From Tachypleus tridentatus (Eukaryota; Arthropoda; Merostomata; Xiphosura; Limulidae), in NCBI RefSeq assembly GCF_004210375.1, contig NW_027467782.1:19137276-19201275 (forward strand): 64,000 nucleotides of DNA, in the 5' to 3' direction. Positions 1 through 62,410 of the stretch are shown here, piece by piece. The position numbers were made by a program, and so were the translations under genes. Each line of letters opens with the position of its first letter. Positions within the stretch are counted from its first letter, which is position 1. The notes beneath the pieces were generated by a model, which saw only the letters and a program-made list of their open reading frames with translations, did no database searches and was not told the DNA's origin.

Positions 1-182
1 CCAAACATGCTCGTCCTTTCACCCATGGGGGTTATAATGTGATGGTTGCATTCGTTGGTAAAAGAGTTGCATGGGTGGTGATCGACTAGCTGCCATCCCT
101 CTAGTATTACACTACAAAATTAAGGACGGTTAGCGCAGATAGCCTCGTGTAGCTTTAGTAAAATTTAAAAAAACAAGCCAAA
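1..182 (+). mobile_element. SINE-A, 5' part outside window
   Basis: This is the body and tail of the commonest repeat in the window. It holds the block around CATGCTCGTCCTTTCA, the GGTAAAAGAGT block, the CTAGCTGCC..CCCTCTAGT block and an A-rich tail. The tRNA-like head lies before base 1. It is diverged from the best copies and lacks several internal bases. Confidence 0.85.
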
Positions 183-1234
183 CCTTTCTACGATTTCGCA
201 AATAATATATTTGTATTTTGTGCGCATTTATTTTAATTCTCCACTTAGTGCAGTGAAAATTTTATATTGTTTAGCAATGGTTGTTTGTTGCTATTATTGG
301 TTTTTTTCACACTCTTCCAGATTGCAACATCACCTAAGAACTGTGAGAGAATAGTGTGGTTTGGGTCTTTGAGAGGATTGTCGCTGACACGCCCCTATCA
401 AAACGCTCCTAGTAATAACCTAGAAATATTGTATCTTTCTTAATCTGAAATGGCCTGGTCGAAACGTTGTTCTCTACTGGCAAAAAAGTTAATACCCAAA
501 AGTTTCAAATCTAATATTTCATGTAAAATAAATAACCGTGTATAACAATGTTTACAAACAACTGAAACCATATGTTTGAGAATTAGAGTTATATATGTAT
601 ATACATAAAAAAATACGAATGTCATAAATAAATAAATTTTTGAGATAAACACATTAACAAAGTAATAAATACTTGGTCCAATATATAATGTGGAATAGTG
701 ATTTAGGCATCGACCTCTAACATCATTCAAATACTTAAACTATTTTAGGTTACTTTATTGTGTGACGACTTAACCCTTCCGTTAATGTTGTATACAATCA
801 CGGTGATGAAGTCTAATTATATTTATTTGATTAGCCATCTCAAGCTGCGCTGATGAGCCTTCAATATGAAACTGCAAACCAACAGCAATGGTTACGGTCG
901 ATCAAAAGGAAATATTATGCCTCAACGTCATTAGTTCTCCTTTCAATTTTACCTTGGTAGAAGAATCTGTATGTGCACTGTAACGAATTTTCCGCTGTAC
1001 ATTTATTTTAATACCTACGTTTGTTCTATATAGTTCTCTTTTCCATGTGACGTATATTGTTGACTACGTATTGTGTGTGCAAGTCCTGCTTGTTGTTGAA
1101 ATTTGTTAAAAAATTTGAAAGTGAAAAGCATCAATATCTAGTTAACAAAAGCGCGCGAGAACAGTGTCAAAATAACTACAGGGTGTTTGAACGTCACTGT
1201 AACTTATACATTTATTAACAGACATGTTTCAATA
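183..1234. other. AT-rich stretch, nothing recognised
   Basis: A 96-codon minus-strand frame at 440-730 is hydrophobic and low in complexity. I see no family motif, splice pattern or codon bias, so I treat it as chance. Confidence 0.5.
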
Positions 1235-1603
1235 TACCGTGTCTGATACAGATCTACCTATATAAAATAAGACCTAGTGTGATTTTGGGGATAGTTTTAC
1301 ATCAGCCCTACCCTTAAAAAAATAAGCCCCTAGTTAAGAGTGGTAGGAAGAGGCAAGAAATAAAAAAATTAATTTATTAATCTGTTTAATAGTTAGTTAA
1401 TTAGTTTGTTTAAGTATTAATCAGTTATTAGTTTAATAGTTTAATAACCGTTCATTTTAAATGGTTAATAATAGTTTTACTTTGTAACTTCATTTTTTTA
1501 ATATATCAAAATAAGACATCCCCCGAAAAATAAGCCCTAGTGTCATATTTGGAAGTGAAAATTAATATAAGTCCTGCCTTATTTTCTTTCGAGAAACACG
1601 GTA
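1235..1603. mobile_element. MITE-like element with short inverted ends
   Basis: The left end TACCGTGT is mirrored by ACACGGTA at the right end, 369 bp apart. Internally, AATAAGACCTAGTGTGATTT near the left and a similar AATAAGCCCTAGTGTCAT block near the right lie in the same orientation around CCCC-rich stretches. From memory, the AAATAAG..CCCCGAAAAATAAG..GAAACACGGTA pattern resembles a dispersed non-coding repeat found in several animal groups. The superfamily is not assignable here. The middle (about 1360-1500) is TTAAT-rich and may be an insertion or decay. Confidence 0.45.
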
Positions 1604-2105
1604 GAATACAGGAGGTAAATATGAATGACAATTATAAACAATGTTGAAAGTGACCCTGCTGGCATAAATACACAGGCCTGATCCTTCTTGTATTTCATTC
1701 TCCTAAACACCGCTATCTGTTAAGCTGGCTTGAAATAGACTGAATAAAATATGATTACAAAACTGCACAGTGATCTTTCCGAACATCCTGTACATTCTGC
1801 CGTAATTCTTATACAGAGCTGAGAGACAGTAACAAGTCAGTGTGCTATAGGCCTAGGGAAGCTATAACTGTGAGTAATCGTTTATTAATCGGAAACAACA
1901 GAAATGAACCAGAAGCGTTTATTGATTTTGAACATTACCAATCATTCAACTTTAGAGAATACTTTCGACGTTATTATTCTTACTGTCACATCTTCTTACC
2001 CATAAAAGTAAGGGGCCAGCCAAGAAAGACGGCGTTAGAGCAAGCGAGGTGCAGCAACATCAACTTAGAATTAATTTGTTCGGCGTGGACTTAGCCGATA
2101 AAAAA
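1604..2105. other. Unassigned stretch; possible LINE C-terminal trace
   Basis: An 84-codon plus-strand frame (1840-2094) ends in RGQPRKT, then a Leu-rich tail. This resembles the Arg-Gly-Arg-Pro-Arg-Lys-Thr-Trp motif near the C-terminus of some LINE polyproteins, but the Trp is missing and nothing upstream supports it. Very tentative. Confidence 0.2.
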
Positions 2106-2166
2106 GATTCAGTCTCTAAGCCAGGTACACAAGATTCAGTTCTAAGCCAGGTACAAGATTCAGTAT
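2106..2166. repeat. Short direct repeat, about 25 bp x 2.5
   Basis: AGATTCAGT followed by CTAAGCCAGGTAC occurs twice, with a third partial AGATTCAGT. The copies differ by one or two bases, so this is a small, fairly young tandem duplication. Confidence 0.8.
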
Positions 2167-2816
2167 TGTTTGTAAAGTTTGTAAAACTGTTGTATATAAA
2201 CCATCATTTCTAATAACTATTAGTAATAACTGTTATTATAAATAAAATTTGTTGTTATGTTTTTTTGTATTAAAATGTATTTATGTAAACAAAAAGGAAA
2301 TCGTGTGCATCAATCATCATATTGGCAAATAGCATAAATGTAATACATACCAACATTCAATTAATTTCCAGGCTCAAACTTTTAAACTTCTGGTCAGTTG
2401 AGACAGTTAAATGAAACATGCAAAATATATCCGAAATAAAAGTAAAATTAATTGAAAACTATGGAATTGTTTAATTCTATTTGCATTATCTCCGTTACAT
2501 TCCATCTTCGCGTATTGTTGCAATTCAAAACGTTCTTAAGGGTTTGTCTAATGATAGGCTTGTTTTTGTCTTCTTGAAAAGAACGATTGATCGGAGCATC
2601 GCTCAAGTAAAAAAAAGAAGATACAACTTTTAAAAGAATAAAATAAGATTTACATATCAATGAAATTAATAATAAAAAACATTTTAATGTCATAACTTAA
2701 GGTTATTTTAAACTTCTTACTAAAAAACCTGAACCTCTAGTTTAACAACCACTGCACGTCCAACGTTCAAGAATATGTGTTATAGCGTCACTGTATCATA
2801 GCAACGTAACGGAAAT
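2167..2816. other. AT-rich stretch, nothing recognised
   Basis: No motif, repeat or RNA gene is visible. An 81-codon minus-strand frame (2448-2693) is Leu/Ser/Phe-rich and looks like chance. Confidence 0.5.
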
Positions 2817-3116
2817 TCGGAAAGTTTGTTTGTTTGTTTTGGAGATTTCTGCAAAGAGCTACTCGAGGGCTATCTGTGCTAGCCGTCCCTAATTTAGCAG
2901 TGTAAGACGAGAGGGAAGGCAGCTAGTCATCACCACCTCCACCACGCCAACTTTTGGGCTACTCTTTTACCAACAAATTGACCGTAACATTATTAACGCC
3001 CCACGGCTAAAAGGGCGAGCATGTTTGGCGCGACAGGGGATGCGGAACCCGCGACCCTCCGATTACAGGTCGCACACTCTTATTGCAGCTTGGCCAACCC
3101 AAGCCAAGTCGGAAAG
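2817..3116 (-). mobile_element. SINE-A copy with 8-bp target duplication
   Basis: On the plus strand it begins with the reversed tail GTTTGTTTGTTTGTTTTGG and runs through the whole body to a decayed tRNA-like head near 3100. TCGGAAAG flanks it on both sides (2817-2824 and 3109-3116), consistent with target-primed insertion. Head and body carry scattered substitutions. Confidence 0.85.
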
Positions 3117-13030: not shown

Positions 13031-14641
13031 ACTTATTCATCAGACTCAGTGTCAAATGTATCATTCCGCTGTCACCACTCTCTGGTTTCAAACGCGACTT
13101 CTGGACAAACTGCACATGTAGTTCCTTCCTTTTCATTTCCATATATAACTCTTTACTTTTGTGGTATACCAGAGAACGTTAAAACTGGTGGGTACTCTAC
13201 ATTTTACAATATCATGCTGGTTACTTCGTTGAAGAACTGGTTTTAGAAAATATTGGACCAACTAAATACTATTAGTTGCTTAAGAACTCCCCGTCATATC
13301 TTCTCCAATATAGTGATCCCAGAAGGTCTGGTAAGGAAAGGAGACAGACTAATCTAGATGTATTTTACTGGCTACGATACCACACCCTACCATGGGAACG
13401 GTGGTTCAGCTATCATATCTACAATTAAGGATGTCATCATCCTTTCAACACCCAGTTTAGTGATACATACTTTCAACATCGGCGAAAACTGTACCTGGTT
13501 CTCGAGCGTTCCCCCACGTGTGTTCCTCTAGCTAGAGATATCACACTCCAAACAGATGAATTTGGAAACTTTCCGAAGGTTGCTCATCTAAATAAATTAC
13601 TCACTGTTTCCTCAACCAAATCAACGTGAGTTTAGGTAAGATATCGTAATATTTTCTTACACTAACACCTCGACTCACACTTCCCACCCTTCCTCTCCAT
13701 TTCTGGTACTTCTTTTCTTGGATTCAGCTGCGACAGAAAAATTAGTCACGCTTCTGTTGGTGGAGAACTGGAGTATTGGCTCAGATGAAATATGGGATAA
13801 GTGGGAGTTCGAGATTAGGACGAGAAAAAACATTTTTTATATGGAGAGCATCACTGAGCTATCATATGAGAAGAGGTATCTATCGGAAAAAACATTTAAC
13901 GCGTATGAAAGTGTTAAGTTTTCATAAATTCCCAACGAACCTTCAACAGCCTTTTGTTTCACACCCATAGACACTGTATTCAAATTTTGTGTGAGTAATC
14001 TTGTGTATATATAAATAACTAAAGATAAACTTATATATTGGTCTTTCTGTTTGTAAGTTCCAATGTAAAATTATTTGGCCTTCCTAATACAAAATACTTA
14101 TCATCATAACTTATCTGTATGTTTTATCTGTAATGCCACATCACAGATATAATGACACATTTAAACAATGTCACAGAAATATATGATACCATGTAGTTCT
14201 ACTTTTACGAGGCAGGCTTATTTAAAAAATTTAACAAACAAGCTTTTAAATCTTCATAATACTTGCATCAAAGCTACATTTCAACATTATTTGATATTTA
14301 GTATGTAGTTTGATGTCGCCAAGACTTTGTCACATTTGGGAAAGATGGTCATGAAAAATAATCATGTACGTGGATTATGAAGATGTGTTCAGATGAAGTA
14401 CTTTTCAAGAAGGAGACAGTCGTTAAACTTAATTGAATTAAGAAACAAAGCAACATACATCAACATCAAAACCATTATTAAACTTATTTCTATATCAGAT
14501 ATTATTCTGACTTCAAGTGAATAATTATCACTTAATGTTTTACATGATAGATATTACTTTCAGTTATATCGTTGCTACATGTTACTTCACCATTTCAACA
14601 ACTTTCACTAACACTACATTACTGGTATACCTTGATTAACG
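13031..14641. other. Stretch of unknown origin
   Basis: 13031-13250 probably still belongs to the LINE fragment but gives no motif. Overlapping plus-strand frames at 12938-13246 and 13718-13970 do not resemble any family I know. The sequence is slightly richer in GC than its surroundings, suggesting an unrecognised old element. Confidence 0.35.
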
Positions 14642-14860
14642 CCTGGCATGGCCTAGCGCGTTAAGGCGTGCGCTTCGAAATCTGAGGGTCGCGCCCGAGT
14701 CGCGCCAAACATGCTCGCCCTCCCTGCCGTGGGGGCGTTATAATGTGAAGGTCAATCCCACTTTTCGTTGGTAAAAGAGTAGCCCAAAAGTTGGCGGTGG
14801 GTGGTGATGGCTAGCTGCCTTCCCTCTAGTCTTACACTACTAAATAAGGGAGGGCTCGGT
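14642..14860 (+). mobile_element. SINE-A copy, 3'-truncated
   Basis: GCCTGGCATGGCCTAGCGCG starts a good tRNA-like head, but the B-box is shortened: GGGTCGCGCCCGAGTCGCGCC has lost the GGTTCG core. The body runs to CTACTAAATAAGGGA, where the family similarity stops. The B-box loss would make it transcriptionally dead. Confidence 0.85.
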
Positions 14861-14991
14861 GCAGTGGGCTAACAACTTACTCACTTAAATACCTGTTCGT
14901 GAAACCGAAAGTGATTGCGGCCCTATGTTCCTTGACGGAATCGAGTGGTAGATAGATAAATAGATAGACCTTCATTAACACAATATTAGAA

Positions 14992-15186
14992 CGGCATGGC
15001 CAGATGAATAGGACGCTCGATTACCAATCTTACAGTAGCTATTTCGAATCCCTGTCACACCAAACATGTTTACCCTTTCAGCCATTGGGGCATTGTAAAG
15101 CGATGGTCAATCTCACTGTTTGTTTGTAAAAGAATAGCCAGAGTCCTTGTGTAGGTTTGCCGAAATTCAGAAACAAGACAAGCAAA
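14992..15186 (+). mobile_element. SINE-A copy, old and internally deleted
   Basis: ACGGCATGGCCAGATG at the left, ATTTCGAATCCCTGTCACACC at the B-box, a shortened body that lacks the GGTGGTGATG block, and a tail GAAATTCAGAAACAAGACAA. Much more diverged than the 9736 or 37648 copies. The 130 bp just before it hold no recognised feature. Confidence 0.75.
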
Positions 15187-15334
15187 TCTACTTAGTAATA
15201 TTTCATGTGTGCAGACGATTTACGTTATTTTAAAACTTAGAGAGAATCGACTTAATTCTTAGGTTGTTGATAACGTTTATCAAATTTATTATTATTAGGT
15301 CTAGATTATTTGTATATTTGTTGTTTTGGTTGTG

Positions 15335-15588
15335 TTTTTTTTAATTTTGCCAAAAATAAACCAGGGTCATCCACGCTAGCCGTCCCTAATTTACTAGCGT
15401 AAGACTGATGGGGAGGACAAAGCTGTCATTTTCCACGGCCAGATCTTGGGATACACTTTTACCAACGAATACTGAGGTTAACGCACATTATAACGTCCCC
15501 ACGGCCGAAAGGACGAGCATGTTTGGTGTCACGGGGATTCGAACCTGTGATCCTCAGATTACAAGTCGAGTACCTTAACCCGGTTTTG
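15335..15588 (-). mobile_element. SINE-A copy, diverged
   Basis: Contains CTAGCCGTCCCTAATTTACTAG, TACACTTTTACCAACGAATA, AACGTCCCCACGGCCGAAAG and ATTCGAACCTGTGATCCTCAG in minus orientation. It ends near ACCTTAACCCGG without a full A-box. Confidence 0.8.
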
Positions 15589-15701
15589 GGGGCATTAGAC
15601 CAGGAATCTACATCTAATTGTTTATCTACACAATGCTTGTATTCTAACATTACGCTACATTTTTTGTTTTTGTAGCTTTTGTAGTTCTAGTATTAATATT
15701 C

Positions 15702-16229
15702 ATGTTGTCCTCCTGTGAAATAGTGGTATATTTTCAAATCTACATCTCTAAAACCAGGGGCTCGATTCCCCTCGGTAGACACAGCAGACAGCCTGATATT
15801 TATGATCATTTCACTCTCAGAAAGAAAGTATTTTTACCATGTTACGAATGTGTATGTAACTACTTCAATCACATCTGTTCGACAGCCCTTCGTATGGGTT
15901 GTAGTTCAACTAGAGGTCCAGAGCTTGACTGTACATTGCACGTGTGTAACAGGAATATGAGAGTGTTATTCACGTGCAGTGGCCCAAGTATTCTACATGG
16001 AGACACCGACAAAGATAACCAAAGGTCAGCCTTGTATTTTGTTCAACCAACAGCATCACAACAAACTGGTATTATTACACGATTCAGTTCTAAGTATTTA
16101 ACTGAAAATAGTGTCATCGTTATTTCACTAATTTGTTATTACGTCCAATGTGGCAGAATAAACAAAGCCGATCAGGTACATGAGGTCTCGTGCATAACCT
16201 TTATAAACGCCTCAAACCAGTCGCAATGA
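15702..16229 (+). other. 175-codon open frame, not assigned
   Basis: The longest plus-strand frame in this part. Its first 35 codons are translated SINE-B. The remainder is Cys-rich in the middle (CYECVCNYFNHIC, then more Cys to about residue 95) but shows no spacing I can tie to a zinc finger or secreted domain. Its end runs into the degenerate minisatellite at 16215. No start context, donor site or homologous motif supports it, so it is probably chance in a locally less AT-rich patch. Confidence 0.15.
15737..15803 (+). mobile_element. SINE-B fragment
   Basis: TCTAAAACCAGGGGCTCGATTCCCCTCGGTAG is the B-box side of SINE-B, followed by ACACAGCAGACAGCCTG. The 5' end of the head is missing. Confidence 0.6.
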
Positions 16230-16500
16230 CATCTATAACAGTCTCAGTGGTATTAACATTCATAACAGTCTCAGTGGTATTAACATTCATAACAGTCTTG
16301 CACTAGTCATTAACAGCCACAAAAAAGAGTCAAAGAACATAACAGTTTTAGTCACACTGACACCAAACATATCAGTTGCATTGGCATCTATAATATCTCA
16401 GTTGTCATTCTGACACCCAAATTGTCTCATACCAGTTATACTGACGTAATATAATCCACACTAGCACCCCTGATGCTCATAATAGTCTCATAACAGTCAC
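16215..16500. repeat. Degenerate minisatellite, about 27-30 bp
   Basis: CATAACAGTCTCAGTGGTATTAACATT occurs twice exactly in tandem (about 16230-16285). Progressively decayed AACAGT..CA.T..CA units continue to about 16500. The pattern is an old array with one recently duplicated unit. Confidence 0.65.
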
Positions 16501-16726
16501 ATTTACTCTAATTTAAACAATAACCAATAGATGGGGATGCTGTTACCGTTTTATCGATTTCGAAGTGGTTATGTTAAAAATAATATTAAACTTCTGCTTA
16601 TTGATTCCGAAATAATCTTTTACCAATGAATCATTTGTTATTTCTTGCTGTAAACTTACCCTACAAAGCAAAGTATAACTAGAAACTTTCAAATTTTCTA
16701 CCATGAATACATCATGAGTTATTAAC

Positions 16727-16925
16727 AGGTTGTTTGTTTACTGAATTTCTTGCAAAGATGTCTCCTTTAATCGTCCCTAATTTTGAAATGATAGACTAAA
16801 GGGAAGGCGACCGGTCAACATTCATCAACCGCCATTTCGTTGATTGCTCTTATCCCACGTTAAAAGCGATTGGTAAACATGTTTGACGACGGGTGTAAAT
16901 CCAGTGATCTGCCAATTACGAAAAA
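16727..16925 (-). mobile_element. SINE-A copy, strongly diverged
   Basis: GTTTGTTTACTGAATTTCTTGCAAAG is the reversed tail; TCGTCCCTAATTTTGAAATG, AAAGGGAAGGCGACCGGTCA and AAACATGTTTGACGACGGG follow. Large internal losses occur and the A-box end is not seen. Confidence 0.7.
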
Positions 16926-17262
16926 AAGCGCTCTAATAGATCATGTCAGGCGTCAATAACAAATAAACATTTCCAGTAAAAAAGGTGAGGTTTCGATTAC
17001 AAGAAAAACTTCTGGCCGAACGTTTCATGTCTTAAAATGTGTTTGATAAATAAAGGGAGACAAACAGAGACTTGGATAAATACTTTAAATTTTACAATAT
17101 ATTATAATCAAACCATAAGATTAAATTGATTAGTCCTAACAAAGAAAATCAAACATATGTTATTCAATTTTACGGATTTTTTTTGTGTTTTACTGGGTGT
17201 GGAAGCTGTAACAAATAACTACAGTAAAATATATCTCTATAAAACAAATTAAATCACTCAAA

Positions 17263-17393
17263 GTGGGACACGCCCGATTGTTCAGGGGTAAGTGTAAGGT
17301 CTTACAACGTTAAAAATTGGATTTCAATATTCACGGTGGGCAGACCACATGCGCCCCTTGCTGTAACTTTATGTTTATTTAACAACAAACAAT
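17263..17393 (+). mobile_element. SINE-C copy
   Basis: CAGGGGTAAGTGTAAGGTCT, ACAACGTTAAAAATTGGATTTC, then GGTGGGCAGACCACATGCGCC and a tail TTTATTTAACAACAAACAA. SINE-C differs from SINE-B by its GGTGGGCA(G)A.CACA body and CAAACAA tail. Confidence 0.65.
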
Positions 17394-17480
17394 CACAGGT
17401 GAAGCAGATACATAACAAAAGTAAACTTTCTTCCAAGAACATGAAAATTGGTTGTTGTTGTTTTTCAGTTTTCTAAAGTT

Positions 17481-17560
17481 TTGGTGCATCCCAAGTGGCA
17501 CAGCAGTATGTCTGTGGACTAGCAACGCTAGAAACTGGCTTTCTACACTGGTGGTGAGCT
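17481..17560 (+). mobile_element. SINE-C fragment (head)
   Basis: AAGTGGCACAGCAGTATGTCTG, GGACTAGCAACGCTAGAAAC and TGGTGGTGAG. Only the tRNA-like head and the first body bases remain. Confidence 0.6.
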
Positions 17561-18389
17561 TACCTACAACTAGAAGCTGTGTTGATTTTAAAACTTTAGT
17601 GAATTAAATTGCCAGATACTAGCTTACAACTGAAAGCATTGAGGAGTGGAGGAGTATAAACCTTCTTTACAAAATTTGAGACACAGTAATGGTAGATACC
17701 ACACAATTATTGTGTGGTTGACACATACAACTCATCTCTACTTCGATTCATAACTTTTTATTGATGTTGACATCCATTGTATTAAACATTAAGGACAGTT
17801 ATTGAGACCGTATAACTATGGTAACAAAACATGTTAGGTTTAAACTAACTCTTTTCTCTAATAAGAAACAGAGACTGGAAATTAAATATTCTGCCTGTTA
17901 TATCAGTGTAATAAACTCAGAAAAAAAAGGCTTATCCTTCATTAGAGAAACGAGTACAAAGCAATGTATTTCCATTAACTTATCACTGTGTTCAAACTAG
18001 ATCTAGAACTTCTGAAAATAAATATGATAAAATAAACATCCCAACAGGTATATGAAAACAATCTGGTATATAAAACATTTTAATGCGTAAACTTAAATAA
18101 ATAATGACTTGTGTGTGTGTGTCTAAAATTAAAGTATATCCTGAAGAACACAATTGCTAGAAAAACTTTTCAAAACATTAATTTTGCATTTCAATTTCCA
18201 TATCAGCTGGCATAAACAATTTAAAGGATAAGCATGTTAGAGAGGGTTATGCATGCTTCCTTTTGCAAACAAAACTTTCCAAACTGTACTGCAAAGAGCA
18301 CAGATAAAACAAAAATACTGTGTAGTTTTGTGTTTAAGAAAAATATGAAGCTACTGACAATAATTAACATCCTATGATCGTCCGTATAT
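17561..18389. other. AT-rich stretch, nothing recognised
   Basis: A 60-codon frame at 17818-18000 has no family features. A short GTGTGTGTGTGT run lies near 18110. Confidence 0.45.
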
Positions 18390-18651
18390 TATGATATTTT
18401 GGTTTGAATTTCGCGCAAAGCTACACGAGGGTTATCTACGCTAGCCGTCCCTAATTTAGCAGTGTAAGAATAGAGGGAAGGCAGCTAATCATCACCACCC
18501 TACCGCCAACTCTTGGGCTACTCTTTTACCAACAAATAGTGGGATTGGCCGTCACATTATAACGACCATGGCTGAAAGGGGCGATCATGTTTGGTGTGAC
18601 GGAAATTCGAACTCGTGACCCTCAGATTACAAGTCGAGTATGATATTTTGG
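18390..18651 (-). mobile_element. SINE-A copy with perfect 13-bp target duplication
   Basis: TATGATATTTTGG is present at 18390-18402 and 18639-18651. Between them lies SINE-A in minus orientation, ending in the anticodon part of the head (ACAAGTCGAG). The target duplication begins exactly at the truncated head, so the copy was 5'-truncated at insertion rather than eroded later. Confidence 0.92.
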
Positions 18652-18753
18652 AAAAAATTCTGTAACTAGAAATAGCCTGGGATACTTGATTCGGACAAAC
18701 AACACTAGACTTAAATCTTCTGCCCAAGGCCAAAAGTTGGTGACATTTTGGCT

Positions 18754-19063
18754 CTGTACTGACACGTTTGTTTGTTTGTTTGTTTTGGAATTTCGCACAA
18801 AGCTACTCGAGGGCTATCTGTGCTAGCCGTCCCTAATTTAGCAGTGTAAGACTAGAGGGAAGGCAGCTAGTCATCACTACCCACCGCCAACTCTTGGGCT
18901 ACTCTTTTACCAAAGAATAGTGGGATTGACCGTAACATTATAACGCCCCCACGGCTGGGAGGGCGAGCATGTTTGGCGCGACTCGGGTGCGAACTCGCGA
19001 CCCTCAGATTACGAAGCGCACGCCTTAACACGCTAGGCCATGCCAGGCTGCCTGTACTGACAC
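18754..19063 (-). mobile_element. SINE-A, full length, perfect 12-bp target duplication
   Basis: CTGTACTGACAC flanks the element at 18754-18765 and 19052-19063. The copy is complete from the GTTTGTTTGTTTGTTTG tail to GGCCATGCCAGG (head). It has few differences from the copies at 37648 and 9736, so it is one of the youngest insertions in the window. Confidence 0.95.
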
Positions 19064-19329
19064 CTTTATACGATTAGCGACCAAACAGAATCGATCTCAA
19101 TATAAACAATACATCTATTTTTGGTTCTTATTTCATGATTTAAAGTTGAATGACGATTCTTATATTTCTATGTTACGAAAAACCAACAAAAGCTAAAAAT
19201 TTGAAAATTAATATATGTACGAAATATGAAATTTTAACATTTCTACGGTGTATACGAAATACGTTAATGTAATGTGTTACAGAAGTAGTTTGTTGTATTT
19301 AAACTCATACAAGGTAGTTAATTTGTTTG

Positions 19330-19436
19330 TTATTAACTACAGATCTGTATGGTAGGCTATTTGTGTTTTCCATCGCTGAGCTCGAACATCGGAATTTAGT
19401 GTTATAAGCTGTTAACTTATTGCTGAGCCACCAGAA
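19330..19436 (-). mobile_element. SINE-B/C copy, diverged
   Basis: GTAGGCTATTTGTG, then CGCTGAGCTCGAACATCGG and AAGCTGTTAACTTATTGCTGAG. The minus orientation and order match SINE-B or C, but divergence prevents a firm family call. Confidence 0.5.
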
Positions 19437-19670
19437 GGAACAACTTTGAATACATTATCAGAATCCAGTTCTTTGATTGTTTTATCGTCGAACAGTTCGA
19501 TGGACTGTATTTTCTTCATTCTTTGTCCACTGCGAATAATCGAAACCACAGATTTTGTCAACGGTAAGAAAGATTTGTGTTCTGATAATTATTATACAAG
19601 GAGACTGTTAATTTGGATTACGTTATATTTAGAGAGCACATAAGAAAAAACAAAACTCGTTGAACAGTTT

Positions 19671-19804
19671 TAGTGCGCCAACTAATGGCATAGCAGTAAC
19701 TCAGTGGACTTATAACGGTAGAAACAAGGCTTCGATGCTCGTAATGGGCACAGCGTAGATAGCCCATTATTTAGCTTTCGCGACTTAACAACAAAATAAA
19801 CAAA
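19671..19804 (+). mobile_element. SINE-C copy, near full length
   Basis: TAATGGCATAGCAGTAACTC (head), AACGGTAGAAACAAGGCTTCG (B-box side), TAATGGGCACAGCGTAGATAG (body) and a tail CGACTTAACAACAAAATAAA. Confidence 0.7.
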
Positions 19805-20860
19805 TGCATGTGTCTATATGTAAAACGGAAAAGGTATTTACTTCTATCTGTTCGTTGCTAATTTCAAATATTCGCATGACAAAACCTTTTTCATAAAACT
19901 TTTGTCAGTGTAACTATTTACTAATATTTTCATTTCATATAAATACATTTCTTTTGAAATTTAAAGAATGACTAAATGTTTCCGCTTTATTTGTTTCTAA
20001 ATACCTTCACACACAGATACACATATATTCTTCCAATTGTATTTATGTGGATTACAGATTGCACTACAAACTGCAGGATAAAATTTTCACCGAGAACAAT
20101 TTAAAGCACCTGCCCACTTTTAACATATACCTATACATTTTTTTTTTGCCAATAAAATAGGACTTACGAGATTTAAGTAAATTATTTTGTTCGCGAATTG
20201 TTGTAATTATGAAATCTGCGTCAATATAATCTTACTTTGGCACTTTGCCTTCTTGATACAAGGAAAAGAACGTTTACCAGTTACTAAGATCAATGTTTCT
20301 ATGATAATTTATGCATGTGCTTTGTGGAAAATAAATACTTTTATAAAGTTAATATCAGGTTTATCCTCAATGTCTGGAAACTGGCTCGTCACTATAGTCA
20401 GCAGCAGTGGTAAAATTCTACTTAAACAATACATAGCTACTCATCTTCACAAGGATTTGGTTGTGTAGAATATAATGTGCTAAGATTTCTGCAAGTCAAC
20501 AGTATTTCGTTGTGCACTATTTAAATTGAACTGCTGGAATGTACAATAGTAATTATAATTGGACCTCTACATAACTTAGAAGAAAAAAGTGGTGCTCCAC
20601 TGTAAATTCGAATAGAATATAACCAGTATGGAATTCCGGTTAATACCAACAGAGTTTAATCTTTATTAAGCAGTTAATATTTTGTGAAATTATGGGACTT
20701 ATCATGTATGGAATAACTCTCAGGTATAAAGCAGAGTTCTTGTTTTCTTCATCAGTAGCTTTTCGTCTTTTTTACATTAATAAATTCTTGGACATTTTGT
20801 TACAGTAAGTATTGGTTAAATATATTCTGTTCTATTTCTGCCGTCATTAATCCGGAGGTC
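19805..20860. other. AT-rich stretch, nothing recognised
   Basis: The 93-codon frame at 20187-20468 shows no family motif. No left terminus for the pogo element that follows is visible here. Confidence 0.45.
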
Positions 20861-20875
20861 ACTATTCGAAACAAC

Positions 20876-21391
20876 GATTGACTTTACTTATGGTCGCATT
20901 TGCTGACGGAAAACTAGAGAAACCATGGGCAATAGGTAAAAGTAAAAATCCGTGCTGTTTCAAAAATTTAAGGAAGAATCAACTTCCTGTGGAATGGAAA
21001 GCGAATAATAAAGCGTGGATGATTTTAGTGTAATCCAAACTCTGATTGAGAAGATTGATGCAGATGACTCTGGAAATGCGGAAAGTTTTGTGAATGTTGA
21101 CACGAATGTTTAAGAAAAACTGGTGAAATTGAGTTAAAATCTATAATAGAATCGAAGATGGTAACAGTGTGAGAGATTCAGAAAATGAACGAAATGGAAA
21201 GGATAGTGAGGAAATTGAAATTGCAACTTCATCGCAAGTGTTAGGTTATATTAACGCTATCAAATTATAAGCAGAAATGAAGTGGAAAATGAACTTCATG
21301 AAAAGGCAGTAAAATTACAGTTCTCTTTTAACTGCATGAGAAAGCCCATTAAAAAACGAAACAGTTGAAATTGGACACTTTCTTCAAATAA
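20876..21391 (+). pseudogene. pogo/Tigger transposase, deleted and frameshifted
   Basis: DDE-type transposase of the CENP-B/JRK/pogo group, which cuts and pastes its element at TA sites in the nucleus. The first block (about 20877-21030) reads RLTLLMVAFADG, then AIGKSKNPCCFK and NNKAWM, the conserved strand-turn region of DDE_1 transposases. An internal deletion joins it to the acidic C-terminal region: DADDSGNAESFVNVDTN, an acidic Ser/Glu stretch (DSENERNGKDSEEIEI) and SSQVLGYINAIK. The extreme C-terminus (about 21356-21391) reads KQLKLDTFFK-stop in one frame. Q-L-K-L-D-T-F-F is a textbook PCNA-interacting (PIP) box, and Drosophila pogo transposase is known to carry one. Several frame changes and stops separate the blocks, and the catalytic core and DNA-binding domains are missing, so it is inactive. 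Confidence 0.75.
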
Positions 21392-21427
21392 ATTTGATTA
21401 AGATTTTGTGTACTTGTGTATATTTTG

Positions 21428-22180
21428 AATGTCTATTTTTGTTTTATTCCAATAAATATAGCATAAACAGTGTAATAAGTTTATTCACAAATGTCTTACT
21501 TCCCCTCAGTCAAGCAATTTCTTATTCTAACAAATATAAACAGTGTAAGAACTTTATTCACAAATGTCTTACTTCCCCTCAGTCAAGCAAGTTCTTATTC
21601 TAACAAATATAAACAGTGTAAGAACTTTATTCACAAATGTCTTACTTCCCTCAGTCAAGCAAGTTCTTATTCTAACAAATATAAACAGTGTAAGAACTTT
21701 ATTCACAAATGTCTTACTTCCCTCAGTCAAGCAAGTTCTTATTCTAACAAATATAAACAGTGTAAGAACTTTATTCACAAATGTCTTACTTCCCCTCAGT
21801 CAAGCAAGTTCTTATTCTAACAAATATAAACAGTGTAAGAACTTTATTCACAAATGTCTTACTTCCCCCTCAGTCAAGCAAGTTCTTATTCTAACAAATA
21901 TAAACAGTGTAAGAACTTTATTCACAAATGTCTTACTTCCCTCAGTCAAGCAAGTTCTTATTCTAACAAATATACAGTGTAAGAACTTTATTCACAAATG
22001 TCTTACTTCCCCTCAGTCAAGCAAGTTCTTATTCTAACAAATATAAACAGTGTAAGAACTTTATTCACAAATGTCTTACTTCCCCTCAGTCAAGCAAGTT
22101 CTTATTCTAACAAATATAAACAGTGTAAGAACTTTATTCACAAATGTCTTACTTCCCCTCAGTCAAGCAATTTCTTATTG
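21428..22180. repeat. Tandem array, 10 copies of a 73-bp unit
   Basis: Each unit holds AAGAACTTTATTCACAAATG, TCTTACTTCC(CC)TCAGTCAAG, CAAGTTCTTATTCTAAC and AAATATAAACAGTGT. Length varies from about 69 to 74 bp by changes in the C run and a 4-base loss in one unit. The first and last units carry CAATTTCTTATT where all inner ones have CAAGTTCTTATT. The period is not a multiple of three, so long repetitive open frames appear on both strands; they are by-products and not genes. Confidence 0.97.
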
Positions 22181-22284
22181 CTTCGCTCGAAAATTATATA
22201 TAATTAAGGAAATGCAACTTCACTTTGTCTGAGCCGGAAATTTTACTCGCTCCCGTGCGATTCCGCCTTAAACAGGCTTCACTG
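22181..22284 (+). mobile_element. 3' terminal region of the pogo/Tigger element
   Basis: CGAAAATTATATATAATTAAGG then a CG-containing stretch (GCTCCCGTGCGATTCCGCC) up to CAGGCTTCACTG and the TA target. The G+C rise and the CACTG terminus fit a terminal inverted repeat, but its partner is lost. Confidence 0.55.
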
Positions 22285-22286
22285 TA

Positions 22287-22865
22287 TTAAAAATTATTTA
22301 CCCCAGAGTATGTCACAGTCGTATCTAAATCTCAAAATAATTATTTTTTGTCAAAAATCCACATAAACTGACTTATTGATTTTAAAATCCAATTGTTTTT
22401 CTCTAATTATGTCAGAATATTTCATTAATGTTACACCGTGAGTTACGACAGTTGTATTCTGAACTGTAAAGAACAGTCTCCTTTTCATCGAAGTCCATAG
22501 AGATTGGTTCAATCACTTTATAACACCCTTAGATGATATAAATTATTCTCCTTATCCCTGTTAAACCTTGAAACTCACTTTAAATATCGTCCGTTGAGTG
22601 ATTAGAATTATTCACAAGCCACCTGACTTCACCTTTTGTAACGCTTTACTGACTAAACGTTACTTTCTCGTCACTTACCTTGATTTTCTCTTCACTTAGA
22701 AGAGTTACGAATAAGGTACAAGAAAGTTTCAACAGTAATATTTAATGTGCAAGGAAATTGAAAACAGTAATAACCCAAGTACAAAAGAAATATAGATAGC
22801 AATACATATGGTATCACACACTTAAAAACAGTAACACATAAGATACAAACATTTTCAGAGAGTGA
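22287..22865. other. AT-rich stretch, nothing recognised
   Basis: No motif, repeat or RNA gene visible. The 81-codon minus frame at 22692-22937 overlaps a transposon end and is chance. Confidence 0.5.
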
Positions 22866-22867
22866 TA

Positions 22868-24441
22868 CACTGCTGGCCAAAATCTTAAGGCCAATGAACA
22901 TGGAAATAAAATATGCATTTTGCATTGTTAGACTCAATCTCTTATCTGAGTATAGCTTCGAAAAAAGAAAATAAGAAAAGGGAAAATAAAAAACAGCTGT
23001 TTTTTAGCATTTAATAGGGAAAATAAGAACACTATGAAATTAGCTTAAATACTAGCTGGTCAAAAGTTTAAGACCATACCAAAAAGAAGTCCTAAACAGG
23101 GTAGGAAATGCCCAACAAGAGGTATCAGTAGTGAGTTGCGCGGCCGTCATTGCGAATAACTTCAAACATTCGTTTTGCCATGGTCGATATAAGCGTTTAC
23201 AGAAGGCTGACTGGAATGTTATTCCAAGTGGTAAAAATAGCTTCACGAAGATCATGCACTGTTTGGAATTGACGTCCATTTCTATAGACTTCCCTTCCCA
23301 TCCACACCGAAGCATTTTTAATGGGCTTCAGTTCGAGCGAACACGCTGGATGGTCCAAAACAATCACGTTATTCACCATGAAAAAGTCCTTTGTCCTGTG
23401 GGCATTGTGGATTGCAGCATTGTCCTACTGATAGATCCAATCATTTCCACACAAGCGAAACCCTTCAGTCAATAAGGATGCTCTCTCCAACATGCCAATG
23501 TAACCAGCTGCTGTTTGACGCCCCTGTATAACCTGAAGCTCCATTGTTCCATGGAAGGAGAAAGCACCCCAGATCATGATGGAACCTCCTCCACTATATC
23601 GTGTAGAACATGTCTCCAGTGGGATATCCTTATCGTGCCAGTAACGTGGGAAGCCATCTGGACCATCCAGGTTATATTTTTTCTCATCAGAGAACAAAAC
23701 CTTCGTCCACTTTTCTACATCCCATGTTTAGTGCTTCTCAGCAAAGTTTAACCAAGCTCTTTCGTGGTGTGGACGGAGGTGTGTGGCCTTTAAAGACGTT
23801 TACGGTTTTTAAAGTCTTTCTCTCGTAGATACCGTCTTATTGTTCTTGAGCTGCATTCTGCGTCCGTGAGGGCCTTAATCTGGTTCGGCGATCGGCTGGT
23901 GTCTTGTCGGACAACCCGTCGAATGCTCCTGCTCAACGCCGGCGAAATTTTATTGGGCCGACCACTTGAAATTCTCGTTCCATATCCCTCAGGGTTTTTA
24001 AGAAATTTGCAACAACAGTTTTACTACGCCCAATCTCACCAGCGATGGCACGTTGAGAGAGACCTTGTTTTTGCAGTTCGACAATTCTGCCACGTTAAAA
24101 CTCTGTCAACTTTTAGCCTTTGCCATGTTTTCATCCAATGTAACATAGGAGATGTCAGTAGGAGATATTGACAATGCTAATGCTTGAACACAAATGACTA
24201 AATTTCGTTACGTGTTTACCGATTAACGCTTCGTATGGTCTTAAACTTTTGACCAGCTAGTATTTAGGCCAATTTCATAGTGTTCACATTTTCCCTATTA
24301 AATGCTAAAAATTTTTTTTTTTTTTTTTCCCTTTTTTATTTTCATCTTTCGAAGCTCTACTCAAATAAGTGGTTGAGTCTAACAACGGAAAATGCATATT
24401 TTTCTTTATGTTCATTGGCTTTAAGATTTTGACCAGCAGTG
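22868..24441 (-). mobile_element. Tc1-like element, complete ends, about 1574 bp
   Basis: Starts CACTGCTGGCCAAAATCTTA and ends with the inverse ATTTTGACCAGCAGTG, each flanked by TA (22866-22867 and 24442-24443). Each inverted repeat is about 200 bp and carries a second, inner copy of the motif (ACTAGCTGGTCAAAAGTTTA, 23050 and 24258 regions). This is the IR/DR arrangement known for some Tc1 transposons. A T-run at 24311-24328 interrupts the right repeat. The transposase runs on the minus strand between the repeats. Confidence 0.93.
23090..24150 (-). pseudogene. Tc1-like transposase, inactivated
   Basis: DD34E transposase that would excise and insert the surrounding element. Minus-strand pieces in order are a paired-type helix-turn-helix region with AELSNC and CPTRHQP (24130-23860, frameshifted), [16 protein letters not shown] with the first catalytic Asp (about 23690), [15 protein letters not shown] (about 23590), QxDNAAIHNAHR with the second Asp (about 23405, a stop precedes it), and LDHPACSLELKPIKN (about 23330). 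In the last motif the family normally has N-P-I-E-N; here the catalytic Glu is Lys. The tail VYRNGRQFQTVHDLREAIF matches the family C-terminus. Stops, frameshifts and the Glu to Lys change make it dead. The second copy at 31022 has the same family sequence. Confidence 0.9.
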
Positions 24442-24443
24442 TA

Positions 24444-25277
24444 TCTAAAGTACAGAACAGTTTACGACTATAGTACTTAAAACACAAGGAGTCTCATGAA
24501 AGTGAATAGTAAGCAGTCTTCTAATGTCTGGATACTTTCAGTAATACAGAGTTTAGTAATATACAATAAAGATAATAGATAATTGCATAAGTGGGAACAC
24601 TTCCTAATTATCAGTAAAGGTATTTCTTTATTAATAGTAAAGTAACTTAACAGTCATTATGATTCACGCGTAATATTGGCTTCATTAATAAACTAATATG
24701 GCTAATTTTTATAGTTTTATAATAAAGAAGCTGGTAACGTAATACAATAACAGTTTTATCCCTCTTCGTACATTTACCACAAAGAACCTTTCTCTGCCAA
24801 TTTTACCAGATGAAGAAGTCACATCTAGTCTCACTATGTAGTTTTTTAATATTTGAACTTTTGTTTTTATCAAATAAATTAATGTTCTTCTTCTGTCGCG
24901 ACTCAAGATACTCGAGCAAGAAGATCTGGTAGTAATATGATAAATCTGAAGGAAAATTGTAAATGACATTTGAACAAAAATATCTTTAAATAAAAAATTT
25001 AAATAATTCGGATTATGAAAATATTTCAAAAATTATTTTGGAAATGACATTTTAAAGATAATCCTCATAAAATAATAAATTAGATTAAAATTAACATTTT
25101 ATTACCTGCGTAACCAGAGTAATTACTAACATGTAATGTATACAAGTAATCTTCGTTTTATGTTCAAAACTTCTGGTAGATAACAAACCTCTCCTTTCCA
25201 TCTTTATCCTTTATATCAAACTTGACTGAGTAATTTCCTTCATTTGTTAGAACGTAGGTCTGATTGTTTCCTACAAA
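24444..25277. other. AT-rich stretch, nothing recognised
   Basis: The 106-codon minus frame at 24709-25029 has no family features. Confidence 0.45.
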
Positions 25278-25279
25278 TA

Positions 25280-26105
25280 TCAGGTCATCCCTTAAGTAAT
25301 GTCCCATATTAGGTTAAAAAAATAGAAATGATTTCAAACGCTTTTAATGTTCTATAATCAATTATTTCTGTTCCATTATTATTAATTACATTCTGCCAAC
25401 GATTCACAAGCTTCTGAATACAACTTCTATAAAATTTGTGGGGTTTGAAAGAAAAGAATGTAGAGAGGGTAGTTTTGACATCTTCATGTGTTCCAAGCTC
25501 TTTTCCATCAAGATAGTTCTGCAAACTTCGGAACATATTATAATCAGATGGGGCAAGGTCTGGAGAATAAGGATCTTCAATCTTTGCAAATATGATCATT
25601 ACTGTATGGGGCCGTGCATTATCCTGGTGTAACACAACACCTTTACGAATTATCAAAGTAGGCCTCTTTTCCTTCAGTGCAACATTCAAACGCTCTAACT
25701 GTTGACAATAAAAGTCTGATGTAATCATTACATTGAGTGGCAGCAACTCAAAGTGGATCACGCCAACAATATCCCACTAACCTCTCAATAAGACTTTCCT
25801 TGGGTGAAGGTCCATTTTGGGCTGTGCTTTAACCAATTTACCTGCACTGAACCGATGTCTGCGGGTCTTAACATTTTCCTAATATATCCATTTTTCATCT
25901 TCAGTCACTAACCTGTCTAGAAATGGTAAGGGTTTATTTTATTAATGATCTGAAAAAGTGGAGTTGGATTAGTTTCTTTTATTTGTCTGAACATTTTTAT
26001 ACACGTCCTAACACACATTTTAGTCATTAAAGCTTTCTACACAGACAGAAATGATGATGCGTTTTCTGTATTGAAATTTCGGATATTACTTATGGGATGA
26101 CCCGA
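25280..26105 (-). mobile_element. mariner element, internally deleted, 826 bp
   Basis: The left end TCAGGTCATCCCTTAAGTAA and right end TTACTTATGGGATGACCCGA are inverted repeats with few mismatches, flanked by TA at 25278-25279 and 26106-26107. Mariners are normally near 1.3 kb, and about a third is missing, including most of the N-terminal DNA-binding region. Confidence 0.92.
25309..25935 (-). pseudogene. mariner transposase (DD34D), N-truncated
   Basis: From about 25925 downward: PFLDRLVTEDEKWIY (first Asp; the usual motif is VTGDEKW), then a stop, the VKTRRHRFSAGK and DLHPRKVLL blocks, another stop, then an uninterrupted 150-codon frame (25761-25309). That frame contains IHFELLPLN, VVLHQDNARPH (second Asp) and SPDLAPSDYNMF (third Asp, the DD34D signature), then the C-terminal KELGTHEDVKT region. 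All three acidic residues survive, but two in-frame stops and loss of the helix-turn-helix part make it non-functional. The intact stretch is about 40% of the usual 345-residue protein. Confidence 0.92.
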
Positions 26106-34204: not shown

Positions 34205-35202
34205 GTTAAATTGTGCAAATTAATTGAAACAAATTGCCATTTTACAATATTTTCAGCATGACAGTCGGTGTAGGCTCGCTGGATTCACTGATTTCCTTTA
34301 ATGGTCATTTTTTTTCACACAGACGGCGTCATTAGCTGTGTTTTGCAGTACGGTCGATCTACTTGTGGGACATATGACGAAATTTTGAGGAATATTACGT
34401 CATTCGAAATTGCGTTAGAAAGGCAAGGAGACCAGTCAAGAAACAACTTCTTACCAACTCAATGAAGAAAAAACGGCATCAGTGGTGTTTGAAATATAAG
34501 AACTGGACGCAAGAACAATGCCGAAAGGTGTTATTCAGTGACGAGACTCATTTCTTCGTACAGGGTCAAAGAAGTCTGCATGTTCGCAGATCTTTAGGTG
34601 AGAAACTTCGAGAATCTCACATCAATCAGTTCTTAAAACATTCCTTGAAGAAGATGTTTTGGGGCTTTTTCAGCTACTATGGCGTCGGAGGCTTACATAA
34701 CGTAGAAGGTATGATGCGAGGACCACAGTACATTGAAGTTTTGCAGAGAAGAGTCGTTCCAGAATTGAGAAAGAGATTTCCAGATGGATCTGGCATTTTT
34801 CAGCAAAATCTGGCTCCGTGCCACACATCGAAACTTGTGAAGAATTTTATGGCTACAACGCGAATAAAGGTGCTGGACTGGCCTGGAAACTCTCTGGACT
34901 TAAATCCTGCTGAAAATCATTGGACGATTTGTAAAGAAAGACTTTGGGGAAAAGACTGTACTACAAAAGATAAGCTAATTAAGGCCACAATTGAGGTGTG
35001 GTACCGCGATCCAAAAATTAGTAAAGATTGCAGTCAACTCGAGGACTCGATGCCGAAGCGGATTAATGATCTTCTGGTAAATAAAGGCGGTCATATCATC
35101 TAATAATTTGTGAGTAATTTTTGTATTCTCAGAAACAAAATGCAAAAAATTGAAAAAATTGTAATTTTCCGTCTTGTTTCACTTAATTTGCACAAGGGTG
35201 TA
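34205..35202 (+). mobile_element. Tc1-like element, second family
   Basis: GTGCAAATTAATTGAAACAA near 34214 and its inverse TTGTTTCACTTAATTTGCAC near 35178 are terminal repeats. The right end continues AAGGGTG and then TA; the left terminus appears to have lost about three bases. These ends resemble a Tc1 family common in arthropods. Total length about 1 kb, shorter than usual because the N-terminal coding part is degraded. Confidence 0.82.
34390..35103 (+). pseudogene. Tc1-like transposase, long open frame, catalytic Asp lost
   Basis: From about 34390 the frame reads NCVRKARRPVKKQLLTNS, then an ATG at 34462 and 213 codons with no stop until 35104. Domains: MKKKRHQWCLKYKNWT (linker); KVLFSDETHFFVQG with the first catalytic Asp (about residue 27); MFWGFFSYYGVGGL; IFQQNLAPCHTSK (about residue 115), where the family has Gln-Gln-Asp so the second catalytic Asp is Asn; and WPGNSLDLNPAENHW with the final Glu retained. 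The helix-turn-helix domain upstream is frame-broken. It looks like a recently dead copy, but retention of a 640-base frame after loss of a catalytic residue is worth noting. Confidence 0.9.
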
Positions 35203-38005: not shown

Positions 38006-40535
38006 TTATCTTGGCAAATGTAGGCAAAGAAACAAATTTGTAAAAGCAAAAGGGATTTGCTATGGAACTATTTAAAGAAATGAGAGGCAACCAAGGAGTA
38101 GAAAAATTGCCACCAACTCCGAGAGCCTGGCTGCAACATTTCTGTAGTTCTCGTGCGATGAAATTTATATGGTAACAATATCTTGTCTTGTACCAAGATA
38201 CTCTGAAATTAGGATGGCAACAATGATACAACAGACTTTTCCCAATGTTTTCAAACGATGTGCTAGTTGTGGATTACGTGTCACAGAAGACTTGCCACAT
38301 GATTAAAAAAACAACAAATTCTTACCCACAAAATTAATACAACTGTATAATGTACCAGATTAATAAATCTTTTTCACTCGGTTAATAATGTGCATTGCTT
38401 TTAACTTTTATGACATTTGTTGATGCAGAGCACAACAATCTGAAATGGGAATAAAGCACTACTGTACTAGATTATTATTAAACTTAATCAATCATTGTGA
38501 ACACAACAGAATCATACTGACATTCCATTATGTTTTTGTTACACCAGTTAATAAAATTCTCCAAGCATTGCCATTATTTTCATATAAAGGAGAGAATATG
38601 TTTTTATGCTATATAAAATGAATATTAATTGATATTTCCGAAAAACAATTTCAATGGAAATGGTGGCCATTTTGAAAATAAAAATTAGTATCTTTAATGT
38701 AGATACAAAAACTGGCAACAACAATTTTCTTATTTGGTAATATTTTTAAATAATTTAAAATGCCATTCTGAAGAAACTATCATAATTTTTTCAATTTTTT
38801 TATTTACTAGTAGATTGGTATTTCAAAATTCTCCTGGTACAGATCTTGTTTTTTTTTTTTTTGTAGAATAGATCTTTTCTTTCACTCATTTTTTTTTAAG
38901 GCCATTTGAGAGGATCTTTCAAATGTTTGCCCAAAGGTCATCAAGATTTCAATAGAAAGATTCTGTAAAGAAAATTCTTATTAAACTTTTACTTCTTGGT
39001 GAATGAAACTTGAAGATCTTATATATTTCAACAACCAATTACACATTTTTGATAGCTACCTACCTCCTGTCATACAAAGCTATCTCAATTAGTCTTTACC
39101 TTCTAAGCATTGCCAAAAAAACATTTTCTCGATCAGTGCACCTATTTTATGCATCAATTTTGTGCATTTGTTCTGAACATGTGCATATCTTGTGCGACTA
39201 CTCTTCACCAGCTAGCTACCCCAACTATTCCTCCTCAATCCTCACTTTCAAGAATTGGCTTGTTCTGAAAAAACTTACCATGAGGAGTATGGGTGGGAAG
39301 TACCCAAGGGAAATATATTTTGGTGTTAGCAAAATAATTTTGGTTATGGTATTATGTCCACTATATAAAGATAGAAGGGCCAGTTTAGGTGCACAACAGG
39401 GTAACTAGTTGAAAGCAACAACCCAGAATGAATGGGTGTGCTCTAAGATGAATGAAGCACACAAATGGGGTACCTCACTACTTCTGGAACAAGTATGCTC
39501 TTTGCATAGGAAGTAGGAAATCAAACCAAGTTGTGTAGAAAAGGAAGTGGTTTTCACAAGTAAAAATGGATCAGTAAGTACAAGCAGTAGTTTTGTATAA
39601 ATGAAATTAGCTATCTACTTTATAAACATCAATTGGACACATTCTATAACTCATCTGTAACCATAATATTGTGGATAGGGCATATAGACTTTGTTATATA
39701 TACCCAACAACCTAATTGTAAGTAAAGAATGTGTCAAAATTCAAGCAACCAAATTTACAAAGAGGAAATGAGCTTTTGGACCAGGCAAACTTCTAAGATC
39801 ACCAAAGAAAAAAGAAGAATAATGAACTACACCAAAAATGAGGTAGAGCCATAATCTCGACTCACCCATAAAAACATGGTCAGCTGTAACCAGTATTATG
39901 GGCAAAATCATAATTCACTCAACCATAAATACAGGGTAAGAGGCATCTTGCATCTAGAATTATAAAAAGAACATGGAGCAATTGCCCAACTTTAAAAATA
40001 CAGTGTAGACTTCCTGTAGTTAATATTAAAAGATGGAAAAAGTCCCTCAATCTCATTTCTAGAAGCTGGAATAAAACCTTCTGCAACTGTAATTAAAGGG
40101 AATAGAGGCATCCCTTGTACTCTAGCATTACAAAGAGGATCCCATGTAGGCTGGATCTGCTCCAACCAATTAATTTATTATTCTATCTATCAATTCTTCC
40201 TTCATTGAGTCAATAATCATGAGTATGTATTATAAAATCAATTTCAAAACTCAGTAGGAAGGCTCCTTGGTCTACCTCACTCAGTGGCTTGGAACTGGTG
40301 AAAACTCCAGTGCTCCAGTAAAAAACAGGGTGAAATGCTGTGGAAGTTCAGAGGAATGTCAGAACAGAGAGAGTACAATGATTGTCTGTGATCCACTATT
40401 TTAAAAAGCAAACTGACCCTATTTTTTTCAATCAAAGGGTTGGAAGGTGTGGACAGAAAACCCCTTCTGCTTTACTCATGAAATCCATGATCACAATCCA
40501 TCATACTTTGAAATGTATTAATATCTAATACTTTA

Positions 40536-40568
<33 letters not shown>

Positions 40569-40990
40569 CACTAGGTTAATGATGTGATCTTATTGAAAAG
40601 CTCCATGTCTATTGCAGGTGTTGCAGAACACCATTAAACGAGTACCAGTTATAGTTCTAGGTACGTCTAGTTAAGCACGTATATAGAGTAGTATATGAAG
40701 TAAATCAGAGCAAACAAATACACTTTTACTACTTTTACTATCCAGGAGCATTGAATTTCAGAAAGAGATTAATATGGTGGGATGAGCAAATAAGTTGCTT
40801 GGATTTGTGGGATAACTGTAATAGGTAAATTAATCATTTTTGGAAAAGGTGCTTACACTGAAAAGCATGTAGCAATGGCTATTAACTCAACTGTAGAGGT
40901 AGATTTAAACTAGGCTAGCATATTAGTAAAACAGGAAATATCTATACTTGACAGAAAAACATATCCAACAGGCATAAAATGTGAATGTGT
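38006..40990. other. Long AT-rich stretch without recognised genes
   Basis: The 132-codon plus frame at 39010-39408 is hydrophobic and Ser/Leu-rich without a family motif. A CACACACACATATATATATA microsatellite lies at about 40539-40568. The 39400-40500 section is purine-rich on the plus strand, possibly the 5' end of the LINE that follows. Confidence 0.4.
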
Positions 40991-61760: not shown

Positions 61761-61954
61761 TTGTCCTATTCAGTAACCAATCCCAGTTACTGTTACACAG
61801 AAACTTTCTTTTCTTTATCTTATAAGTGAGTTTAAATACAAGATACGGTTCGAGAAGTGAAAAACAATATATGAAGATGAAAACGTAAGAGCAAACATCA
61901 GGATATGTGAGAAGTTAATTACAAGCGTTTAACAGAAGAGGAGTACAGGAAAAT

Positions 61955-62290: not shown

Positions 62291-62410
62291 TTGTTATTAT
62301 ACTTTTGGGATTTGGATTACTTAAAGGAGTTTGTGCTGTGAATAAGGCCAGAACCTTACAATGTTAACAGCCCGATCCAATGTTTTTCAGTATAGGTATT
62401 ATTTTAAATT

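Follow-up and report, generated by a model that had tools for sequence, protein, structure and literature searches.

A minisatellite that very likely grew within a single dead Tigger copy

The DNA analysed here, called the window throughout, is a stretch of 64,000 nucleotides (C19:19137276-19201275 in a genome assembly of 2.17 Gb). It contains a damaged pogo/Tigger transposon in which a tandem array lies between the end of the former transposase frame and the right terminus of the element. The features of the locus, in window positions, are as follows.

20776..22284, + strand: pogo/Tigger copy, truncated and internally deleted; compared with the copy L018, some 260 bp are missing on the left, the terminal inverted repeat among them
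20878..21030, + strand: remnant of a DDE transposase domain, a 51-amino-acid open stretch (Pfam DDE_1, PF03184; E = 1.8e-8)
21018..21022, + strand: internal deletion junction with a 5-bp overlap between its flanks, marking the loss of about 410 bp of coding sequence
21389..21391, + strand: TAA closing the former transposase C-terminal frame (...LDTFFK*); the L018 translation has the same ending
21463..22179, + strand: tandem array with a 73-bp unit (range, 71-74 bp) in 9.9 copies by TRF; the unit derives from a segment of the 3' UTR that is single-copy in the element
22190..22284, + strand: right end of the Tigger copy, terminating in ...CAGGCTTCACTG (CACTG); the same segment is present in independent copies
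22285..22286, + strand: TA target dinucleotide at the right end; TA is on both sides in L040 and L021
22289..22595, + strand: what is left of an older dispersed repeat that served as insertion target for the Tigger copy; matches elsewhere at 68-79% (best 40 of 832 candidates)

The window remnant and a better-preserved independent copy elsewhere in the genome (L018; DDE_1 match at E = 1e-30) both encode a transposase of the DDE_1 family, as do pogo/Tigger elements of the Tc1/mariner superfamily. These matches uphold the pogo/Tigger identity proposed in an earlier note made from the letters of the window; for the family name, we take a DDE_1 element with CAGT...ACTG ends inserted at TA to be pogo/Tigger. 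Read by eye, the family ends are CAGTAAAA... on the left and ...TTTACTG or CACTG on the right, and the window copy lacks the left one. Insertion at TA is evident at the level of the family, from L040 and L021 (GGTA/CAGTA... on the left, ...TTTTATTG/TA on the right); the window copy has the flanking TA on its right side only, directly after the CACTG terminus that the note had placed at 22284.

Alignment to L018, in which the element begins at L018:2762 directly after TA with CAGTAAAACTTG..., places the start of family homology at about 20770-20776 in the window (about L018:3010-3016), upstream of position 20863, from which the note had counted the element. Window positions 20776-21022 align with L018:3016-3263 and positions 21018-21517 with L018:3675-4179, and the internal deletion is read from this pair of alignments. 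An element without its left terminal repeat and an internal coding segment cannot be a normal transposase substrate. The window copy has lost both and should therefore be immobile. Six copies of the older host repeat were fetched (69-74%), and at least five of them run on across the Tigger insertion point. We sought the left part of this repeat in window positions 14001-20776 and did not find it there (best E, 0.1); a single deletion may have removed the left end of the Tigger together with the left flank of its insertion.

TRF reported the array with a period of 73, 97% matches, and a score of 1362 (reporting threshold, 50). A recount with the unit core gave 10 units, which agrees with the ten 73-bp repeats described in the note between a transposase stop at 21389-21391, correctly located there, and the terminus. 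The first unit is 78 bp long and retains an ancestral GCAT. With a 73-bp unit whose number varies from 1 to 12 among nine duplicates of one insertion, the array is a minisatellite. A satellite would be expected as long arrays detached from its source element and scattered over many loci; searches of the assembly found no array outside two Tigger insertion lineages. The array has no indicated function. The fold of the unit is weak (−4.3, versus −2.7 ± 1.5 for 300 mononucleotide shuffles), with values of −8.8 for two tandem units and −7.0 for an ancestral-type stretch. A stem-loop in the unit was considered as a driver of expansion and rejected on this comparison with shuffles.

Several other repeats lie in the window. 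Just right of the Tigger copy (22864-24445), two long inverted arms are 86-87% complementary; from its appearance, we presume this pair to be a Tc1/mariner-type element. Further transposase remnants are present at 34378-35100, 56361-56798, and 25312-25776 (two DDE_3 and one Transposase_1), and TRF detected a diverged 33/67-bp tandem array of about 34 copies at 66% (47451-48579). A scan of the window with Rfam yielded nothing besides a degraded fragment of LSU rRNA, far from the array (62252-62706, + strand; RF02543, 149.6 bits, model positions 1891-2388). This fragment has an insert of about 42 nt, presumably near the R2 retrotransposon target site; an inverted duplicate covers 62252-62706 as well.

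We compared the window copy with Tigger copies elsewhere in the genome. The coding and terminal segments adjoin at many genomic places (search scoring the best 40 of 1,855 candidates) and are 65-77 bp apart in L018-L028. Of the copies fetched from outside the window lineage, 31 contain coding remnant, unit, and terminus side by side (L018-L028, L039, L040, and 18 of the 20 copies in a later sample). The note had inferred that the terminus belongs to the same element as the transposase fragment and had asked whether the two are found together elsewhere; in these 31 copies they are. A TTTACTG-like terminus followed by TA is present in 21 of the 31, and in the remaining 10 (L018, L026, L027, L028, L047, L048, L050, L052, L054, and L058) no such end with TA is readable, being degraded, misaligned, or absent. 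The right segment is absent from L043 and L044.

Outside one small clade, every fetched copy (31/31) carries a single unit; this count comprises 10 copies of an earlier sample, L039, and the 20 copies of the later sample, which were chosen among 30 places matching one unit only and whose unit number was known beforehand. The 18 usable copies among these 20 fall outside the clade in the tree. In a genome search with two units, 9 of 39 places matched at least two units (best 40 of 820 candidates scored). The ancestral order is ...TTTTTGTTCTTATTC...GAGTCAAGCAAGTATAAC.... The subfamily with two units has diagnostic letters in its 3' UTR (AAATGTC...CCCCTGAG). At the duplication junction, CAAGCAA is joined to GTTCTTATTC. 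The two breakpoints, TTTTT/GTTCTTATTC and CAAGCAA/GTATAA, have just GT in common in most single-unit copies read, or AGT if L018 is used, and thus lack the direct repeats of at least 5 bp that the Haber-Louis model places at a founding duplication. We conclude that the array is not general anatomy of the element, whose own 3' UTR supplies the unit.

Eight further copies share the flanks of the window copy: four on C19 (19.33, 18.79, 29.70, and 35.63 Mb, the last being the most broken match), one on C4 (46.1 Mb), and three on C8 (80.6, 85.2, and 91.5 Mb). Among right-flank copies matching at 88% or more (best 40 of 832 candidates), all nine, window included, carry the element. The shared DNA extends well beyond it: L010 matches the window over 8 kb at 98.2%, and L012 does so over 8 kb at 99.0-99.6%. 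The 19.33-Mb copy is inverted (block C19:19.29-19.35 Mb) and matches window positions 17688-25681 at 98.2%, as well as the window ends (61089-64000 at 98.4%; 1-1236 at 88-94%). The 29.70-Mb copy matches window positions 1-2937 at 94%; L030, from the same block and expected to match the window at about 58-61 kb, gave no match. These comparisons of duplicated blocks used samples of 3-8 kb. Long blocks of high identity, with flanks unrelated to the element, are characteristic of segmental duplication, and we read the flank-sharing copies as duplicates of host DNA blocks, not as Tigger transpositions.

Within this lineage, unit number varies widely (L009-L017 in order: 10, 10, 12, 6, 5, 2, 2, 1, and 2), that is, 10 in the window; 10, 12, and 6 on C19; 5 on C4; 2, 2, and 1 on C8; and 2 at C19:35.6 Mb. 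In a tree of flank and element, copies with 5-12 units form a group of their own (support, 100/100), separate from the copies with one or two. L009 and L012 show 100.0% identity (to one decimal) across about 1.5 kb, with zero-length branches, yet have 10 and 6 units, and the array of L011 holds seven identical units. Units are therefore gained or lost faster than the flank mutates. The left flank (20170-20770) joins the element identically in all nine copies, including those with one and two units, where it passes into the element with no interruption at 20770-20776. Because this join is the same in the one- and two-unit copies, the loss of the left end preceded growth of the array. Arrays of more than two units were found only in this lineage, which consists of duplicates of one insertion with common flanks.

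SINE-like repeats also distinguish the duplicates. In L013 (C4:46.1 Mb), such a repeat lies within the array, with an apparent 12-bp target duplication (TCTTATTCTAAC); we take this insert to be a SINE from its tRNA-like look and its many copies. Another is present at window positions 18771-19048 and absent there from L013, L015, and L016, and a third is present at about 20155 (near 20151-20161) in L014, L015, and L017 and absent from the window. The presence and absence of these repeats among the duplicates help to order the duplications.

The two-unit search mentioned above recovered a second Tigger insertion carrying two units, at C2:37224433 (L040), with the same junction as the window lineage. 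This insertion has its left end, preceded by TA, and TA follows its right end. Its flanks match not the window lineage but L021 (C8:91.9 Mb), a paralogue or duplicate with one unit. (Window positions 38010-40822 are 92-94% similar to the right flank of L040, which is therefore another dispersed repeat or duplicated block.) The clade of the two insertion sites, which are sisters, received support of 98/97 and 92/94 in two trees, both rooted by midpoint. The single unit of L021 is of the L040 unit 1 type at the head position and of the L040 unit 2 type in its tail; it lacks the G specific to unit 1 of L040 (ATGTAGC) and differs from that unit at another site. Similarly, the one unit of L016 has a unit 1 head and the unit 2 tail of L014 and L017, copies with which L016 does not group in the trees. 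Because head and tail combine two unit types, L021 and L016 look like contractions, although the bases that mark these recombinant units are few and may be shared by chance.

Since the C2 insertion has two units, the same junction, and a sister position to the window lineage, the two-unit seed was probably borne by the transposon into both sites. On the compared sequences, a single origin of the two-unit form followed by transposition is thus the probable course of events. It is unlikely, though it deserves serious weight, that each insertion acquired its repeat independently, with the 3' UTR acting as a hotspot at which L040 and the window lineage were duplicated separately. Unit number changes easily within one insertion, L021 has one unit despite its kinship with L040, and the second unit of L040 keeps the GCAT that is missing from the second unit of the window lineage, as separate duplications would allow. 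Against separate duplications, however, the junction is the same at both sites and occurs in no other insertion among the genome-wide matches, the two sites are sisters in the trees, and L021 resembles a contraction from two units. With trees rooted by midpoint and a recombinant signature of few bases, two duplications at one spot retain this minor share of the probability.

We searched the genome for the array outside the element with two units and with two junction patterns. A 44-nt junction pattern had 39 matches in 2.17 Gb, of which 38 were in window-lineage duplicates; the 39th (C10:72343943), considered as an outlying array, proved to be a single-unit Tigger. A plain-letter junction pattern allowing up to 3 mismatches had 40 matches genome-wide, 39 in the window lineage and one in L040, and its reversed control had none. 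L017 and L040 were missed by the 44-nt pattern and caught by the plain-letter one, and junctions of greater divergence may likewise have gone unnoticed; the patterns cover one breakpoint, and the genome searches score the best candidates, a limit that applies to patterns as well, such that diverged arrays could escape. No free-standing array of the unit was found in the assembled genome with the two-unit search (best 40 of 820 candidates) and the two junction patterns.

These searches bear on the suggestion, raised in the note, that the array belongs to the element's anatomy and that the transposon is a vehicle seeding a satellite. The two-unit form probably transposed, to one other insertion with the same junction, which lends the vehicle idea limited support, and repeated transposase-binding sites in terminal repeats have been described for Galileo and suggested for Tetris (PMC4079207). 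It is nevertheless very unlikely that the array is working anatomy, for example, a set of repeated binding sites of this kind, given that each of the 31 copies fetched from outside the clade has a single unit, that the arrays found with more than two units are confined to the lineage without a left end, and that the genome searches showed no seeded, free-standing arrays. For the ten units seen here, the note was essentially right in its alternative, namely that the array expanded locally within this copy of a mobile element.

Arrays and near-identical duplicates are hard to assemble, and the array lengths are known from the assembly alone; collapsed or expanded repeats could in principle have produced the length differences. 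Such an artefact is nonetheless highly improbable, as the copies differ in unit types, in flanking insertions, and in the SINE inside the C4 array, and the mix of unit lengths varies from copy to copy. It is scarcely credible that the Tigger captured, or was entered by, a satellite that already existed, with the unit being a common satellite as the note had allowed: nothing beyond the tandem form speaks for this, other copies carry single-copy sequence homologous to the unit in the corresponding place, and genome searches found no array outside the element.

Taken together, these results make it very likely that the minisatellite grew within one dead Tigger copy. In the history that we propose, (i) a 78-bp stretch of 3' UTR just past the stop codon of a Tigger source element would have undergone tandem duplication, which brought CAAGCAA next to GTTCTTATTC, the two breakpoints having just GT in common; (ii) to judge from the tree and the unit types, the two-unit form would have inserted at two or more sites; (iii) the window-lineage copy lost its left end and an internal coding segment; (iv) one branch reached 5-12 units, presumably through slippage or unequal exchange, and other copies probably contracted to one unit; and (v) the array came to lie on C4, on C8, and at several places on C19 within duplicated host blocks, not through separate Tigger insertions.

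A more specific version, which we offer tentatively and hold to be rather less probable than its negation, is that a Tigger subfamily moved a freshly formed two-unit repeat to at least two sites and that growth to a dozen units began only after one copy had lost its terminal repeat. If this is true, loss of mobility would mark the difference between a two-unit repeat that is carried along unchanged and a minisatellite that grows, and the blocks would preserve the steps 1-2-5-6-10-12 beside flanks that can be dated. In answer to the question raised in the note, a transposon that contains a satellite-like array is not necessarily what spreads it. The locus also offers a staged record of a minisatellite, from birth (one to two units) through growth and contraction to spread, with the duplicated surroundings usable as a clock.

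Transposon-derived arrays are common. In the human genome, Ahmed and Liang (2012) counted at least 7,276 of them, or 23% of minisatellites and satellites, and the mechanisms postulated account for just 6% of these arrays (PMC3389668). The present case resembles theirs in that a piece of a transposon was tandemly duplicated and the units then expanded locally; it differs in having a DNA transposon as host, in a 2.17-Gb genome, with stages from 1 to 12 units kept by the duplicates of one insertion. The route from transposon to tandem repeat, DNA transposons included, is described in reviews (PMC12628747, PMC6947457). miDNA4 of Xenopus, a Tc1/mariner MITE (Scalvenzi and Pollet, as described in PMC12628747), likewise has a unit within a Tc1/mariner-related element, single or in arrays of variable number. 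For miDNA4, however, capture of an existing repeat by the ancestral MITE is suggested, whereas the unit described here stems from the 3' UTR of the element itself, with larger arrays found only in one lineage without a left end. In Tetris and its TIR-220 repeats of Drosophila virilis, a piece of a DNA transposon is also in tandem, with changes in copy number ascribed to possible unequal crossing-over; unlike the present unit, TIR-220 lies in the terminal repeats and also forms satellite-like arrays of kilobase size, and none comparable were found here (PMC4079207). The order of events proposed above, a first duplication followed by slippage or unequal exchange, is that of the model of Haber and Louis, which differs in having flanking repeats of 5-10 bp where most single-unit copies read here have just GT (as summarized in PMC6947457 and PMC3389668). 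A staged series of this kind in a Tigger copy was not found reported in those parts of the open-access literature that were searched. We conclude that the array is an ordinary transposon-derived minisatellite, formed by a route already known, with an unusually clear history.
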